Position numbers and translations under genes: made by a program
The notes under the pieces: generated by a model
What the model was told of the DNA's origin: nothing
Databases searched by the model: none
Seen by the model: only the letters and a program-made list of their open reading frames with translations
Origin: Deltaproteobacteria bacterium
GTDB lineage: Bacteria; Desulfobacterota; Desulfobaccia; Desulfobaccales; 0-14-0-80-60-11
Direction of reading: 5' to 3'
Assembly: GCA_003599195.1 (NCBI GenBank)
Contig: QZIZ01000108.1
Location: 1-33,343, forward strand
DNA length: 33,343 bases
In this document: positions 10,781 to 33,343 of the stretch, one piece after another
Layout: each line of letters opens with the position of its first letter
Numbering within the stretch: the first letter of the stretch is position 1

Positions 10781-11689
10781 TCAACCATTAAATCTGCTCA
10801 CAATCTCCGCCGCCTCCCCGGGATTACGCAAGGCCAGGGTGCAGAAGCTCACCGTGTCCGCGCCCACGTCCAGGTATCTTTGCACGTCCTCCCGATTCTT
10901 GACGCCGCAGCCCATGATTAAAGGCAGACGCACTTTTTTTCGCAATTTGGTGTTATAACTCAGGGCCGCGGCCAGAGCCGGACCCCCGGACACCCCCCCG
11001 CCCCCGGCCCGCCACAGGGGGGAGCGCTCCAGGGGATAGATGATCTCATAGGGGATGGTGTTAATGGCATGGATGGCGTTGATGCCCAGCCTTTCCAGGT
11101 CTTGGGAAAATTCGCAGGGGTGGCAGATACTGATCTTGGCGATTAAAAAGAGGCCGGGGAATTTAGCCCTGACGGCCTGGCTGCACTTCAGCCCCTGGGC
11201 CACGTTCTCCCGGATGGCCTCCTGGGAATTGGGGCAGGAATAGTTGAGTTCCAGGGCCCAAAAGTCGGGATCCAGGATTTGCTGATAAATCTCGACCGCT
11301 TCCAGGATGTCCAGGATCGCCAGTTCCGTGCCTTTGACAAACTCCGGATAGAGATTGGGGATGACCTTAAAGCCCTGATCTAGGGCTATCTTGATATCCC
11401 GGGCGCAGGCCTCGGCCCCGGGATTGGTGAGGCCGTAGGCGTTGAGCATGCCGCCGCCGGGAAGCCGGCGGATATACTTCCAGGTCAGGGGGTTCCAGGC
11501 GATAAAATTGCCGATTCTCTTGGACCTGGTGGCGGATTTGGCGAAGACCGCGGCGCCCGTCTCCCGGACGGCCCGGAGCAGCCGCCGGTAGCCGGGCAGC
11601 AGGGTATAGGGAAAGATGCCCCGGCCGGAGGTCCCCAGGGCCGTGGAGACGGCGACGGTGGAGATGCGGCCTTCCTTGGCTTGGATCAT
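10781..11689 (-). CDS. Dihydroorotate dehydrogenase-like FMN enzyme
   Basis: ELNYSCPNSQ, NTIPYEI, GGGGVSGGPALAAALSYNTKLRKKVRLPLIMGCGVKNREDVQRYLDVGADTVSFCTLALRNP; likely start MIQAKEGRIS at 11689 (upstream extension is repeat-derived). Confidence 0.75.
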   Translation of the reverse strand: MIQAKEGRISTVAVSTALGTSGRGIFPYTLLPGYRRLLRAVRETGAAVFAKSATRSKRIGNFIAWNPLTWKYIRRLPGGGMLNAYGLTNPGAEACARDIKIALDQGFKVIPNLYPEFVKGTELAILDILEAVEIYQQILDPDFWALELNYSCPNSQEAIRENVAQGLKCSQAVRAKFPGLFLIAKISICHPCEFSQDLERLGINAIHAINTIPYEIIYPLERSPLWRAGGGGVSGGPALAAALSYNTKLRKKVRLPLIMGCGVKNREDVQRYLDVGADTVSFCTLALRNPGEAAEIVSRFNG

Positions 11690-26777: not shown

Positions 26778-27125
26778 TCAAGAATGTTCCATTTCGGCCA
26801 GACGCCGCTGGATAGCCTCCAGTTCGCTTTGCAAGTAGGCCGCTAACTCCCGCAGAGCCTCGGCTTCATCCTTTGGGGAGACGTAACCGGTTTTCTTGCT
26901 CGAGACAGAGATACCAAACCCCCATGGGCCATAGCCCCAGCGGGGAGGGCCTCCAAGACTCGTAATCACAGGCTGCCCCCGGCCACGGCCGTGAAAACGC
27001 TGGCCCCGGCTGCGGGCAGACCCCCGCCGCAAGCCGGCCCCGCACGGCCCCCGGCCCCAGCCCGTGCCCGAACTCTGGCCTCTTGGTCCTTTAGCGTCAA
27101 AATTTGGCATGATCATTATCCTCAT
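26778..27125 (-). CDS. DUF5320-like small Gly/Arg-rich protein
   Basis: MPNFDAKGPRGQSSGTGWGRGPCGAGLRRG... with C-terminal coiled coil ALRELAAYLQSELEAIQRRLAEME; next to NifX-like genes. Confidence 0.6.
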   Translation of the reverse strand: MRIMIMPNFDAKGPRGQSSGTGWGRGPCGAGLRRGSARSRGQRFHGRGRGQPVITSLGGPPRWGYGPWGFGISVSSKKTGYVSPKDEAEALRELAAYLQSELEAIQRRLAEMEHS

Positions 27126-27181: not shown

Positions 27182-27547
27182 TCAGGACATCCAATGACTG
27201 GCAACATCCGGAACTCTCGCTGGCGCTAATTTCCCGGCCTGGTATTTTTGCACCGCCTCGCGTACCGGACCCTTCATTCCCAAAATTACGCCTATGCCGG
27301 CAGCCAACAGAGTGTTAAAAGCCTTAGGTCCGCAGTGCCCCGTGAGCACCGCGGCCGGCCGCTGACGGGTTATCATGGCGGCCGCCTGTATTCCTGCCCC
27401 TTGCGCTGCCTGCAGGTTCTGGCCGTTCGTCAGCGCTTCGCAGGCCATGGTTTCCGTGTCCACCATAAGAAAATAGGGCGCCCGCCCGAAACGCGGCTCC
27501 ACCTGTGCTTCCAGATCGGGTCCGCTGGCGCTTAAGACAATCTTCAT
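27182..27547 (-). CDS. NifX/NifB-type (dinitrogenase iron-molybdenum cofactor biosynthesis) family protein
   Basis: MKIVLSASGPDLEAQVEPRFGRAPYFLMVDTETM...AAAMITRQRPAAVLTGHCGPKAFNTLLAAGIGVI. Confidence 0.88.
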   Translation of the reverse strand: MKIVLSASGPDLEAQVEPRFGRAPYFLMVDTETMACEALTNGQNLQAAQGAGIQAAAMITRQRPAAVLTGHCGPKAFNTLLAAGIGVILGMKGPVREAVQKYQAGKLAPARVPDVASHWMS

Positions 27548-27708: not shown

Positions 27709-28086
27709 TTACCGTTCGCGCCCCCCGAATAAGGGCACATTAGGTCCCGAAGCCTCCTGCAATTCACCCAGGCGCAGCTTGTTCAACACCTGGCGCAACG
27801 AGCCCCGGGCATTAAGGAAGACCTTGACTCCCGCTCCCTTTAACTCGTCAATACCCTTAGGCCCGCAATGTCCCGTCACCACGGTTTCCACCATCCGATT
27901 TTTGGTCAGGTTTTTGGCCGTAAGAATCCCCACATCCGTGAGGGAAGAAAGGGTGGCCAGGTTGTCGAACGATTCCCAATCTTCTGTGGCTGGGTCCACC
28001 AGGACAAAAAATCGAGCCCTGCCGAAACGCGGTTCGACACAAGCATCGAGACCCTTGCCGCTGGCGCTGATGGCTACGGTTTTCAT
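27709..28086 (-). CDS. NifX/NifB-type family protein
   Basis: MKTVAISASGKGLDACVEPRFGRARFFVLVDPAT...VTGHCGPKGIDELKGAGVKVFL. Confidence 0.88.
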   Translation of the reverse strand: MKTVAISASGKGLDACVEPRFGRARFFVLVDPATEDWESFDNLATLSSLTDVGILTAKNLTKNRMVETVVTGHCGPKGIDELKGAGVKVFLNARGSLRQVLNKLRLGELQEASGPNVPLFGGRER

Positions 28087-28536: not shown

Positions 28537-29016
28537 TTAATGGTCACACACATTCGGGCCATTGACCAAGGCCCCGGAAAGGTAGCCCTGGACCAGGGCC
28601 TCCGACTCCTGACTCGGACTGCCGGTGATCACCCTGATTCCTTGTTCCGCAAAGAGGTCAAGAGCCCGCTGGCCCATGCCACCGGCAAAGATAAGATTCA
28701 CTCCCAAATCCCCCAGCCAGCGAGGCAGGACCCCTGGTTCATGAGGCGGAGGAGTAAGGAGTTCTTTGTCGTCGATCAATCCTTCCTTGACCCGGATTAC
28801 GGCAAATTGTTGGCAATGGCCGAAGTGATTGCATAACCGTCCCTCAGCCAGTGGTATGGCTACCTTAAAGGTGTTGGAATCAGATACGATGTTCCCCGAT
28901 GATGGGACTTGTAAACATTTTCGGAGCTGTTCCTCAAGCCGAGATTCGTCTTCTCCTTTGGGGAGATGGCGCTCAGCGCCATCCTGGGCGCAGTGATGAC
29001 TCTTACAGTTGCTCAT
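28537..29016 (-). CDS. NifX/NifB-type family protein (ORP-like) with N-terminal extension
   Basis: FKVAIPLAEGRLCNHFGHCQQFAVIRV...LIFAGGMGQRALDLFAEQGIRVITG. Confidence 0.85.
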   Translation of the reverse strand: MSNCKSHHCAQDGAERHLPKGEDESRLEEQLRKCLQVPSSGNIVSDSNTFKVAIPLAEGRLCNHFGHCQQFAVIRVKEGLIDDKELLTPPPHEPGVLPRWLGDLGVNLIFAGGMGQRALDLFAEQGIRVITGSPSQESEALVQGYLSGALVNGPNVCDH

Positions 29017-29059: not shown

Positions 29060-29074
29060 TCAAGTACTATGCCA
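29060..29074 (-). promoter_or_regulatory. Candidate sigma-54 promoter upstream of 28537-29016
   Basis: Minus strand TGGCATAGTACTTGA (GG-N10-GA; weak -12). Confidence 0.45.
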
Positions 29075-29126
29075 ATGGTGTATTGTACCGGAATAGAGGG
29101 TTTTTAAAGGACGGCCAAGGGTGTTT

Positions 29127-29143
29127 GGGAGCATTTTGCTCCC
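29127..29143. promoter_or_regulatory. Candidate enhancer/UAS palindrome for the sigma-54 activator
   Basis: GGGAGCATTTTGCTCCC. Confidence 0.65.
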
Positions 29144-29159
29144 TCAACAAAGGATAATA

Positions 29160-29174
29160 GGAGCAAAATACTCC
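29160..29174. promoter_or_regulatory. Second candidate UAS palindrome
   Basis: GGAGCAAAATACTCC, one mismatch in dyad. Confidence 0.55.
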
Positions 29175-29195
29175 CCACAAATGAGGGCGGTATTT

Positions 29196-30470
29196 CTATC
29201 GGGGCGGGTTGATCCTGTAATGGTTGATTTTGCGGCGCAGGGTGCTTTTGTCGACGCCCAGTTCCCGGGCGGTGGCCAGGCGTCGCCATTGATTGCGTTC
29301 CAACGCTTCCCACAGGGCCTTTTTTTCGATTTCCTCCAAGGTTAGGCCGGTAAGGATAAGTCCTGACTGATTTTCAGGCTGCAAGTGCTCCGGCAGATGT
29401 TGCGGCTGGATCAGGCCGGAGGGACAGAGGATAAATGCATGTTCGATGGCGTTTTCCAGTTCCCGAATGTTGCCCGGCCACTCATGACGCATAAAAATGG
29501 CCAGCACCTCATGGCTCAACCCCAGGATTTTCTTCCCCTTCAGCTTATTGAAGCGCTCGATGAAATGCTCGGCCAGCAGGGGAATGTCTTCTTTGCGTGC
29601 GGCCAGCCGGGGCAATTTAATCTTCACCACATTGATGCGGTAATAAAGATCCGTGCGGAAGGTCCCGTCCTCCACGAATCTGGCCAGGTCCTTATGGGTC
29701 GCGGTGATGATGCGCACATCAGCCTTCATGCTCCGGGATGAGCCTAACGGCATATAGGTCCGCTCTTCCAGGACCCGGAGCAGCCGCACTTGCAGGGCCG
29801 GAGAAATGTCGCCGATTTCATCGAGAAACAGGGTCCCCTTTTCCGCCAAGGCAAAGCGGCCCAGTCTATCCTTGCGGGCATCCGTAAAGGCCCCGGCGGT
29901 GTGGCCGAAGAGTTCCGACTCCAGCAGGGTGTCCGGGAGTGCCCCGCAGTTAACGGCCACAAAGGGGGCTTTGGCGCGTTGGCTCAGGTTATGAAGAGCC
30001 CTGGCCACCAATTCCTTGCCGGTGCCGGACTCCCCCTGGATGAGTACAGTGCTATCGGAGTGGGCGATTTCCGGCAGCAGTGAGAAGATCTTTTGCATCA
30101 AGGGGGACTTGGAAAGGATGTCTTGCAGGCGGTATTGCCGGCGAATTTCCCGGCGCAGTTCCTCCACCAGGCTTAGATCACGGAAGGTCTCCACCCCGCC
30201 GATGATCTCTCCGAACTCGTTCTTAAGCAAGGCGGTGCTGACGCTGATGGGGATTTCCCTGCCGTCGGCCCGGAGGATGGCAATGGCCCGGTTCACCACC
30301 GGTTTCCCGATCTCCAAAGTGTGGCGGAGAACGCAGGCCGATTCGCACACACTGGCCCGGAAGACCTCGCAACAGGGCCGCCCCAGGGCCTCTGCGGCCG
30401 GCACGCCGATAATCTCCGCGGCTGCCTGGTTGAAGAAAGTAACCCTCCAGTCCAGGTCCACCGTGAACAC
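29196..30470 (-). CDS. PAS domain-containing sigma-54-dependent transcriptional activator
   Basis: PAS region, AAA+ motifs GESGTGKELVARALHNLS, ESELFGHTAGAFTDA, GTLFLDEIGDI, C-terminal HTH ARELGVDKSTLRRKI; PAS homology (QTEIILNSIAEGVFTVDLDW) extends upstream of the GTG start. Confidence 0.92.
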   Translation of the reverse strand: MFTVDLDWRVTFFNQAAAEIIGVPAAEALGRPCCEVFRASVCESACVLRHTLEIGKPVVNRAIAILRADGREIPISVSTALLKNEFGEIIGGVETFRDLSLVEELRREIRRQYRLQDILSKSPLMQKIFSLLPEIAHSDSTVLIQGESGTGKELVARALHNLSQRAKAPFVAVNCGALPDTLLESELFGHTAGAFTDARKDRLGRFALAEKGTLFLDEIGDISPALQVRLLRVLEERTYMPLGSSRSMKADVRIITATHKDLARFVEDGTFRTDLYYRINVVKIKLPRLAARKEDIPLLAEHFIERFNKLKGKKILGLSHEVLAIFMRHEWPGNIRELENAIEHAFILCPSGLIQPQHLPEHLQPENQSGLILTGLTLEEIEKKALWEALERNQWRRLATARELGVDKSTLRRKINHYRINPPR

Positions 30471-30544
30471 GCCTTCGGCGATGCTGTTCAGGATGATTTC
30501 GGTCTGGGAGGGGAGGCGGGACGTTGATCTAGCTCTGGTCCGCC

Positions 30545-31450
30545 CTAGGTCTGAGCCGGCCTTTGAACGTTTCCCTTCGGCTTCCGCCCGGCAATCTCGC
30601 TTGTTAATCGTTCCCAGACCACTTGGAGAAGTGTCTGTAATTTCTTGTTATTATATTCCATTATCGTCTTGCCTTCAACCTGGGCCCGAGTGAAATCTGG
30701 ATCGAATGGCAAATACCCCAAAAAAGCATAGCCCTTTTCCCGGCAGAATTCCGCGATCTTTTTTGCAGTCTCCCAATGTACATCCGCCTTATTCACCAGG
30801 ACCAGGACCGGCAAGCCGAAATGCCTGACAAGGGTCGCCACCCGCTCAAGGTCATGGCGCCCGGCGATACTGGGTTCGGTTACTATCAGGACCGCGCTGG
30901 CATCACCCAGAGAAGCTATTACCGGACAACCGATCCCAGGCGGGCCGTCGGTGATTATCCAACCCCGGCTTTGTTCTTCCGCCACTCGCCGTGCCTCCCG
31001 GCGGACCAGGGCCACCAGTTTGCCGGAATTTTCTTCGGCAATCCCCAAGCGGGCATGCACCAAAGGTCCGAAGCGGGTAGCGGAGATGAACCACTCGCCA
31101 CAGAGATTGTCAGGAAAGTCAATAGCTTTGGCAGGACACAAATACCAGCAGACGCCGCAGCCTTCACAGACCAAGTGATTAATTTCCAGAGACCCGCTGA
31201 TGGCTCCGAACCGGCACCATTCCAGACATTCGCCACATTGCACGCAGCGGTCGGGATCGATGACCGCCTTGTGTCCGGCATAAAAATTCTGCCTTCCCCG
31301 GACTTCGGGACGGAGCAAAAGGTGCAGGTCTGCGGCATCCACATCGGCATCACAGAGCAGTTTATCCTGGGCCAGGGCCGCAAGCGCGCCCACCAGGCTG
31401 GTCTTGCCGGTGCCGCCCTTGCCGCTCAACACCACTAATTCACGGATATT
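30545..31450 (-). CDS. MinD/Mrp-type P-loop ATPase with inserted 4Fe-4S ferredoxin domain
   Basis: LVVLSGKGGTGKTSLVGALAAL plus DRCVQCGECLEWCRFGAI...CEGCGVCWYLCPAKAI; start likely at MPNIRELVV (about 31453). Confidence 0.9.
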   Translation of the reverse strand, partial: NIRELVVLSGKGGTGKTSLVGALAALAQDKLLCDADVDAADLHLLLRPEVRGRQNFYAGHKAVIDPDRCVQCGECLEWCRFGAISGSLEINHLVCEGCGVCWYLCPAKAIDFPDNLCGEWFISATRFGPLVHARLGIAEENSGKLVALVRREARRVAEEQSRGWIITDGPPGIGCPVIASLGDASAVLIVTEPSIAGRHDLERVATLVRHFGLPVLVLVNKADVHWETAKKIAEFCREKGYAFLGYLPFDPDFTRAQVEGKTIMEYNNKKLQTLLQVVWERLTSEIAGRKPKGNVQRPAQT

Positions 31451-32309
31451 CGGCATCAATAATTTCTCTAAACGGCAAAATGTCTTGGTTAAGTTTGGCG
31501 AGCAGATCATCCATCAGACGTTGCCACTGCGGCAGCTCTTCCACCAGTAAGCCGCCCCGGGCATAGACCTCAGCCGCTTCTCGGTCGAAAGGGATTTCCT
31601 GTAAAATCGGCAGGTTTTCCCGGGCTGCATATTCGTGCACCTGCCGGTCTCCCAGATCGGCCCGATTAATTACCAGGCCGCAAGGGATGTTTAACTGCCG
31701 GGTCACCCCCACCGCCAGTTCCAAATCGTTGAGCCCAAAGGGGGTTGGTTCCGTAACCAGAATCACCGCATTGCTCCCCCAGAGCGAGGTCACCACCGGG
31801 CAGGAGGCGCCGGGGGGGGCATCAATGATGGTCAGTCCGCGGGACGGGATTTCCTGCTTAACTCGCCGGATGAGAGGCGGGGCCATGGCTTCTCCCACCC
31901 GCAGCCGGCCATGGGTGCAGGTGATTTTGCCTCGGCAGCCGGTTTCCACTTGCCCTATCAGGCGCTTCCGGGACATCACCGCATCTTCTGGGCAGACCAG
32001 GGAACACCCCCCGCAGCTATGACATAGTTCGGGAAAGGTGAGCGCGGTTTCGGGAAGGATGGCGATGGCGTTGAACTGACAGATTTCCTGGCATTTGCCG
32101 CATAAGGTGCATTTACCCACATCGATTTCCGGCACTTCCACTTCAAATGCCAGACTTTCGGTAATCTCCGGCCGTAGGAAGAGATGGGCGTTGGGTTCCT
32201 CCACATCGCAATCGAGCAGATGCACCGGTTCGTCCAGGGCAGCCGCCAGATTGGTGGCGATAGTGGTTTTCCCGGTGCCGCCTTTGCCGCTGGCTACAGA
32301 GATAATCAT
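31440..32309 (-). CDS. MinD/Mrp-type P-loop ATPase with inserted 4Fe-4S ferredoxin domain
   Basis: MIISVASGKGGTGKTTIATNLAAAL plus GKCTLCGKCQEICQFNAI...CHSCGGCSLVCPEDAV. Confidence 0.92.
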   Translation of the reverse strand: MIISVASGKGGTGKTTIATNLAAALDEPVHLLDCDVEEPNAHLFLRPEITESLAFEVEVPEIDVGKCTLCGKCQEICQFNAIAILPETALTFPELCHSCGGCSLVCPEDAVMSRKRLIGQVETGCRGKITCTHGRLRVGEAMAPPLIRRVKQEIPSRGLTIIDAPPGASCPVVTSLWGSNAVILVTEPTPFGLNDLELAVGVTRQLNIPCGLVINRADLGDRQVHEYAARENLPILQEIPFDREAAEVYARGGLLVEELPQWQRLMDDLLAKLNQDILPFREIIDAEYP

Positions 32310-32317
32310 TTATCCCT

Positions 32318-32881
32318 TCACTTCCGCTCCATAATCTGATGGCAGCGGGGACACTTTATCTGCGCGCAAGGGATGCCTTGTTCATGGGGGATACTGGAGC
32401 CGCAGGCCGGGCATTGACAGGCCCCACCCGGTCCCAACCCCTGCACCGGTTCGTTGAGACTGGTGTTCCCACCCCGACTTCCGATTCTCTCCTGACCCCG
32501 GCACGGAAGCCCCTTCCCCTCTATCCAGCCGCTGCGGTACCGGCGCAGACCCCGGCAGCCGGGCAGCAAAAACTTTGGATGGTCTAAGGCATTCTGCCAG
32601 TAAGATTGCACCACTTCCTGTACCTCGCCAGCCACTCCGCTCACTACAGTGAGGCCGAGCTCTCCTGCATACCGCAGGAGATCAGCGCTCAAGGCGCCGC
32701 AGATCAGGGTGTTGACCCCTTTATCACGTAATGCCTGCAACCGCTGGGCCGCAGCCAGGTGAGGCAAAGCCAGCTCCTGCCCACCCCCTTCCTGGTAGGG
32801 CTCTTCCGGGAAAATCTGCATCCGGGAACACCAGTTCAACACCGGCGCCACCCGGCCTCGCATCACCGGTATGGCAATCAT
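32318..32881 (-). CDS. NifX/NifB-type domain protein with C-terminal zinc-ribbon
   Basis: MIAIPVMRGRVAPVLNWCSRMQIF...NTLICGALSADLLRYAGELGLTVVSGVAGEVQEVVQSY; C-terminal CQCPACGSSIPHEQGIPCAQIKCPRCHQIM. Confidence 0.8.
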   Translation of the reverse strand: MIAIPVMRGRVAPVLNWCSRMQIFPEEPYQEGGGQELALPHLAAAQRLQALRDKGVNTLICGALSADLLRYAGELGLTVVSGVAGEVQEVVQSYWQNALDHPKFLLPGCRGLRRYRSGWIEGKGLPCRGQERIGSRGGNTSLNEPVQGLGPGGACQCPACGSSIPHEQGIPCAQIKCPRCHQIMERK

Positions 32882-32946: not shown

Positions 32947-32962
32947 AGCACGATGTATGCCA
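32947..32962 (-). promoter_or_regulatory. Candidate sigma-54 promoter upstream of the 32881 operon
   Basis: Minus strand TGGCATACATCGTGCT (GG-N10-GC), about 65 nt upstream of the start codon. Confidence 0.65.
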
Positions 32963-33004: not shown

Positions 33005-33020
33005 GGGAGCAAAATGCTCC
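33005..33020. promoter_or_regulatory. Third candidate UAS palindrome
   Basis: GGGAGCAAAATGCTCC, same motif as 29127-29143 in inverse orientation. Confidence 0.65.
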
Positions 33021-33217
33021 TTCCGCCAGGGAATATTCTTATAATCGGTTATCCGATATTTTCAAATGGAAATTATTCTGTCTTAAAGGAAGTGATCAGT
33101 AGTCAGCTATCATTTATGAAAACGTCGGTTAGAAGGTTGATTAGGTGAAAATAACTGATTAATAATTAATTGATTACGATTACTGATTACTCGATTACCA
33201 GAGATATTAGGAATCCC

Positions 33218-33343
33218 ATGAAATCGTTTGAGGAATTACTCGCAGGTTCGGTGGCGGCCCATGGACATCTCTGTCCGGGCCAGGTGGTGGGGGTGCGCAT
33301 GGCCCTGCTGGGCCTGCGGCTCCTTACTTTCGAGGCGCCCCCG
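33218..33343 (+). CDS. FmdE family protein, 3' truncated by window edge
   Basis: MKSFEELLAGSVAAHGHLCPGQVVGVRMALLGLRLL, typical FmdE N-terminus. Confidence 0.8.
   Translation, partial: MKSFEELLAGSVAAHGHLCPGQVVGVRMALLGLRLLTFEAPP

Follow-up and report, generated by a model that had tools for sequence, protein, structure and literature searches.

The window analysed here is a complete contig of 33,343 bases and holds a set of minus-strand genes whose content matches that of orp clusters: two ferredoxin/MinD ATPases, NifX-type proteins and MrpORP, the latter present in the window as its ORP domain only. The genes fall behind two candidate promoters, which we call P2 (operon start 29016) and P1 (operon start 32881), as follows:

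26778-27125, minus strand: DUF5320 gene (PF17253), last of the presumed P2 operon
27182-27547 and 27709-28086, minus strand: two further NifX-type genes (PF02579), downstream of P2
28537-29016, minus strand: ORP (NifX-type) domain protein (PF02579), first gene of the P2 operon
29060-29074, minus strand: predicted P2 -24/-12 element, TGGCATAGTACTTGA(T), conserved as TGGCA-N6-TTG(A/T/G)
29127-29143, minus strand: putative promoter-proximal P2 operator, 17-mer GGGAGCAAAATGCTCCC, perfect 7-3-7 palindrome
29159-29175 (core 29160-29174), minus strand: putative distal P2 operator, GGGAGTATTTTGCTCCT, one palindrome mismatch
29196-30470, minus strand: OrpR-like sigma-54 activator with PAS, AAA (GAFTDA) and Fis-type HTH domains (Pfam)
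30545-31510, minus strand: MinD-like ATPase with two 4Fe-4S motifs (PF01656, PF00037), Orp3/Orp4-like
30650-30678, minus strand: predicted sigma-70 promoter of the activator gene, TTGAAG-N17-TATAAT, 10 of 12 positions matching
31440-32309, minus strand: second MinD-like ATPase with 4Fe-4S motifs (PF01656, PF00037)
32318-32881, minus strand: NifX-type protein ending in a Cys-rich tail, at the head of the P1 operon (weak PF02579 match, under the curated cut-off)
32948-32962, minus strand: predicted P1 -24/-12 element, TGGCATACATCGTGC(T), conserved as TGGCA-N6-NTGC at nine P1 loci
33005-33021 (core 33006-33020), minus strand: putative single P1 operator, core GGAGCATTTTGCTCC, perfect palindrome

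The likeness of the ATPase at 30545-31510 to Orp3 and Orp4 is based on the published description of these proteins (PMC6345978). Beyond P1 the contig end cuts a plus-strand frame at 33220-33343, which is divergent from P1 and FmdE-like on reading.

Control regions and activator gene

Much of this layout had been proposed in a first-pass annotation of the same DNA. The two palindromes that it placed at 29127-29143 and 29160-29174 are indeed there, the first (GGGAGCATTTTGCTCCC) perfect in its 7-3-7 frame and the second with one mismatch, and they lie behind the activator gene with 32 bp between the centres of the distal and the proximal site. The minus-strand TGGCATAGTACTTGA described upstream of the NifX-like gene was located at 29074-29060, and the palindrome said to recur in the other control region of the cluster does so as a perfect copy at 33006-33020 (GGAGCAAAATGCTCC), ahead of the other orp operon and with its centre 64 bp from the -12 of P1. 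Read on the minus strand, the -24/-12 candidates are TGGCATAGTACTTGAT from 29074 for P2 and TGGCATACATCGTGCT from 32962 for P1. Sigma-54 promoters normally carry GC at -12. Measured against TGGCA-N6-TTGC, P1 has both the GG and the GC dinucleotide, whereas P2 has GG but GA (TTGAT). The P2 element is conserved in relatives, and its description has to be amended at -12, which reads TTGA(T) and not TTGC.

The first gene behind P2 had been called NifX-like, with a start at 29016. The NifX-type domain is confirmed, and the assignment can be refined to a MrpORP remnant: the product matches MrpORP positions 241-365 with 134.6 bits, under the 450-bit cut-off, and is predicted to represent its C-terminal portion, the Mrp ATPase domain being absent. 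A full MrpORP is encoded elsewhere in this genome (C1:75594-76679). Among relatives, the P2 gene is a full-length MrpORP in L057, L058 and others and the short version in L056 and L059.

The neighbouring gene at 29196-30470 had been taken for a sigma-54 activator, an assignment with which its Pfam domains agree. The protein has no receiver domain and shows the domain set of the OrpR (DVU2106) group. Three cysteines of its PAS domain (Cys33, Cys42 and Cys46) are invariant in 20 homologs and would be compatible with an Fe-S or redox signal; in later work on OrpR, the PAS domain reportedly senses redox through an Fe-S cluster. Since the annotated GTG start at 30470 is unconserved (GTT, GTC or GTA elsewhere) and the residues upstream of it are conserved, the protein seems to begin earlier. 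The frame upstream of this GTG (30470-30647, minus strand) contains no ATG, GTG or TTG, and the true start is probably a CTG (CTG/TTG/GTG) near 30617, overlapping the ATPase gene.

The activator gene is predicted to be transcribed from its own sigma-70 promoter, which is nested in the last part of the ATPase gene ahead of it. TTGAAG-N17 with a -10-like hexamer is kept in all 12 family loci that have this arrangement. Three loci have lost the ATPase genes that precede the activator and keep a C-terminal remnant with the sigma-70 promoter (L052 8363-8497, L053 2080-2193, L071 9197-9478); at L062 the promoter is present and no ATPase gene match was detected. That the promoter is kept where the ATPase gene is lost suggests that selection holds on to the promoter, and not to the protein alone.

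Conservation of the paired sites and their promoters

In our reading, the palindromes very probably serve the OrpR-like sigma-54 activator, the product of 29196-30470, as its operators or enhancer sites. To follow them through evolution, we compared the surroundings of activator orthologs and close paralogs from the same family, which are 65-88% identical. The sites vary in their letters and keep the dyad frame (GGGGCATTTTGCCCC, GGTGCATTTTGCACC, GGTGCATTTTGTTCC, GGAACAATATGCACC), with GGAACA, GGTGCA, GGAGCA and GGGGCA as half-site variants. At P2, all 12 same-family loci compared carry the paired sites at a spacing of 32-33 bp, and the 17-mers of these sites share 71-75% identity between loci, as opposed to 25-30%, the random level, in the flanks. 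The proximal operator occupies the same place in all 12 loci (mean pairwise identity 75% versus about 30% for its flanks), its centre being 74-75 bp from the -12. The P2 promoter 16-mers are 77% identical between loci. TGGCA-N6-TTG(A/T/G) was present in 11 of the 11 loci in which a P2 promoter was found, and C at -12 in none. The two promoter types are set apart by their ends, TGC for P1 (9/9) and TTGA, TTGT or TTGG for P2 (11/11).

The P1 operator of the family loci lies mostly 64 or 74-76 bp from the -12. Taken together, the distances between operator centre and -12 cluster at 64, 72-76, 93-96, 104-106 and 114 bp, with increments close to a turn of the helix. With related genomes counted as independent, the Rayleigh test for helical phasing gives p ~3e-6 at 10.5 bp and 9e-4 on distinct values.

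Several further loci were inspected for the same arrangement. In Desulforhabdus (L112), TGGCATATTCTTTGAT stands behind paired sites and likewise has TTGAT at -12. At L062, with the activator on the plus strand, an inverted repeat (agaagccatttcaaaacctc ... gaggttttgaaatggcttct; about 10970-11110) appears to have been inserted after the paired operators, ahead of where the promoter would be expected, and the TGGCA..TTG element was not found within the range searched. As a separate observation, L063, L064, L065 and L066 carry activator paralogues (65-73% identical) with the same paired operators and a TGGCA..TTG promoter; those of L064, L065 and L066 precede Fe-S/flavoprotein genes of Hdr/Qmo-like look (Fer4, Pyr_redox_2 and CCG domains).

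The paired P2 sites also form a larger inverted repeat, with outer half-sites mostly GGAACA and inner ones mostly GGTGCA: the distal site is 75% identical to the reversed proximal site and 60% in direct orientation. This symmetry would suit an RNA hairpin that ends the activator mRNA and serves as a terminator or stability element, and in the minus-strand RNA the two palindromes can indeed pair (-40.3 kcal/mol, z = -3.6), one stem being flagged as terminator-like. We nevertheless consider a hairpin very unlikely, and rejected it, because the P1 copy, which shares word and phasing, precedes an operon and does not follow a gene, because the unlike half-sites of the orthologs (GGAACA with GGTGCA) break the stem pairs but keep the half-sites of a dimer, because a proper T tract is absent, because terminator-like sites are no commoner than in shuffles (4 versus 5.0) and because Rfam returned no family above cut-off. 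Helical phasing to the promoter is likewise unexpected for a terminator.

The operator word and the type of activator

We scanned one genome per species, 84,980 species in all, with the activator alignment and obtained 80 named loci (965,579 bases). The family consensus GGNRCA-WWW-TGYNCC has 12 exact matches in these 0.97 Mb, every one at most 270 bp from the activator gene, while the reversed control has one. Their hosts include Desulforhabdus, Syntrophobacteraceae, Desulfosarcina and Desulfobacula as well as the Firmicutes Desulfofundulus and Desulfovirgula. An exact site accompanies 8 of the 17 loci with a [DHN]K[NG]TLRRK recognition helix versus 2 of the 63 others (Fisher p = 3e-5, related genomes treated as independent); at the remaining 9 of the 17, no exact site lies within 500 bp.

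A more demanding composite (palindrome, gap of 46-76 bp and TGGCA..TGM) matched 11 times in 395 genomes of the phylum and never in its reversed control, and all matches from the same family are at these activators. Six or seven of the 11 fall outside this family, and four of these neighbour either an NtrC-type regulator or a DegP-like protease, so similar words outside the family serve other regulators or arise by chance. The loci L101, L102, L103 and L104, from two other families, have GGGGCAWWWTGCCCC and a second similar dyad about 18 bp off near the NtrC-type regulator and the DegP-like protease; these dyads probably belong to some other sigma-54 activator as its operator, and the composite matches at these four loci were discounted as coincidental or as part of another system.

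Such matches, together with the generic nature of the dyad, are what speaks for another regulator, a repressor or nucleoid protein, as the owner of the sites in place of the adjacent activator, given that other genomes have GGGGCAWWWTGCCCC ahead of an NtrC-type regulator and a DegP-like gene. We regard this as highly improbable, since the sites follow the activator and its recognition-helix type across phyla and the paralogues of the activator adjoin the same paired sites. The assignment of the palindromes to the product of 29196-30470 in a diverged ORP lineage, as put forward in the first-pass annotation, is supported by the comparison between genomes, through the helix association, the phasing and the orp gene set.

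Frequencies have to be read with care. In the window, 22 palindromes with at most three mismatches compare with 21.5 expected, and 133 occurrences of the -24/-12 pattern alone with 121 expected; both are at chance level, and these loose counts were excluded from the evidence. The question whether the word is restricted to the cluster, also raised by the annotation, was answered with the exact form: the 3.92-Mb genome has two copies of GGAGCA-N3-TGCTCC, and both are inside the orp cluster, one behind the activator gene and one ahead of the other orp operon. A third copy with one mismatch is located 32 bp from the first exact copy. Of 11 one-mismatch copies examined elsewhere, 10 are within open frames of 268-726 aa and one is on a contig stub. 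One near-match (L004), with a 7/7 match to -24/-12 at 140 bp, was rejected as chance because it sits inside a 523-aa frame. The family consensus, with 4 matches genome-wide versus 3 for the reversed control, is not enriched, and therefore the case for activator operators rests on position and conservation rather than on frequency. That the palindromes are accidents of an AT-rich gap, for which the three-mismatch count could be quoted, has a negligible probability, as the exact form is exclusive to the cluster and the conserved footprint between random flanks contradicts it.

A diverged orp system and its proposed control

Paired palindromic enhancers, about three helical turns apart and upstream of a -24/-12 promoter, are a feature shared with sigma-54 activators of the NtrC/ZraR type. 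The window differs from these in its operator word and in having a one-component PAS activator instead of a response regulator. The closest known system is the orp cluster of Desulfovibrio vulgaris Hildenborough (DvH), where the GAFTDA activator DVU2106 (OrpR) binds palindromes located at -131 and -88 of sigma-54 promoters and its own gene is transcribed by sigma-70 (PMC3897727, PMC4641369, PMC6345978). Common to both clusters are the GAFTDA sigma-54 activator, palindromic sites upstream of the -24/-12 promoters of both operons (predicted here), a sigma-70 promoter for the activator gene (here by sequence) and genes for two ferredoxin-ATPases, NifX/ORP proteins and MrpORP. They differ in that the window genes all run in one direction whereas DvH has two divergent operons, in that only the ORP domain of MrpORP is left here, and in that the activator gene here also closes the P1 operon. 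The half-site differs as well, GGGNRCA here and GGRCGAA in DvH-like Desulfovibrionaceae, whose genomes stood in for DvH in this comparison. In DvH, IHF sites are needed between operator and promoter.

A further comparison is offered by the Desulfovibrionaceae-like genus g160 (L227-L229), which has the same genes and an activator 51-53% identical. In L228, 7-3-7 palindromes (GGACGAATAATTCGTCC and CGACGAAAAATTCGTCC) 31 bp apart stand ahead of a sigma-54 promoter, CGGCACGACAAATGCT. In contrast to the window, g160 has the half-site GGACGAA, the HTH motif TKDTLRRI, a canonical TGC at -12 and divergent operons. L227-L229 thus share the architecture and its geometry but use another operator word. The cluster described here is a diverged form of the orp system known from Desulfovibrio; the regulatory system itself is known, and what is new is the operator word and a few unexpected features.

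What was computed here, namely the sites, their pairing, phasing and conservation, the cluster exclusivity, the link to HTH type and the sigma-70-type promoter sequence, can be assembled into a mechanism, for which we infer activator binding, sigma-54 use and PAS redox control by analogy with DvH and the activator family. The activator would be made from its own sigma-70 promoter (30678-30650), and dimers of its Fis-type HTH would bind the 7-3-7 palindromes through the half-site GGGNRCA, two upstream of P2 and one upstream of P1. Bound to the face of the DNA on which the promoter lies, it would loop to contact sigma-54 RNA polymerase at -24/-12, whereupon P1 and P2 would open. P2 would drive the ORP/NifX genes, and P1 would drive NifX-Zn, both ferredoxin-ATPases and, in addition to its own promoter, the activator gene. 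With its gene standing last in the P1 operon, the activator should raise its own level, a predicted positive loop. Redox control would be exerted through the cysteine-bearing PAS domain.

The two promoters need not respond alike. One reading is that P2 may be weak by design and reliant on two activator dimers, whereas P1 would manage with one operator and a better -12. A bolder and rather doubtful extension is that P2 might be a cassette with a deliberately non-canonical -12 (TTGAT), weak and off until two dimers bind the inverted repeat, and that this cassette was copied together with the activator to Hdr-like Fe-S/flavoprotein clusters of electron transfer and formed a redox regulon. Such a regulon, if real, would link Fe-S/ORP biogenesis to electron transfer.

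To our knowledge, little is established outside Desulfovibrio about what the orange-protein complex does or what its activator senses. With a defined operator word that is confined to the cluster, the regulon can be followed through uncultured anaerobes from sequence. The half-site that changes with the recognition helix (GGGNRCA with KNTLRRK, GGACGAA with TKDTLRR) offers a readable case of co-change between operator and activator, and the conserved TTGAT at -12 directly probes the stringency of sigma-54 at the position where it is most conserved.
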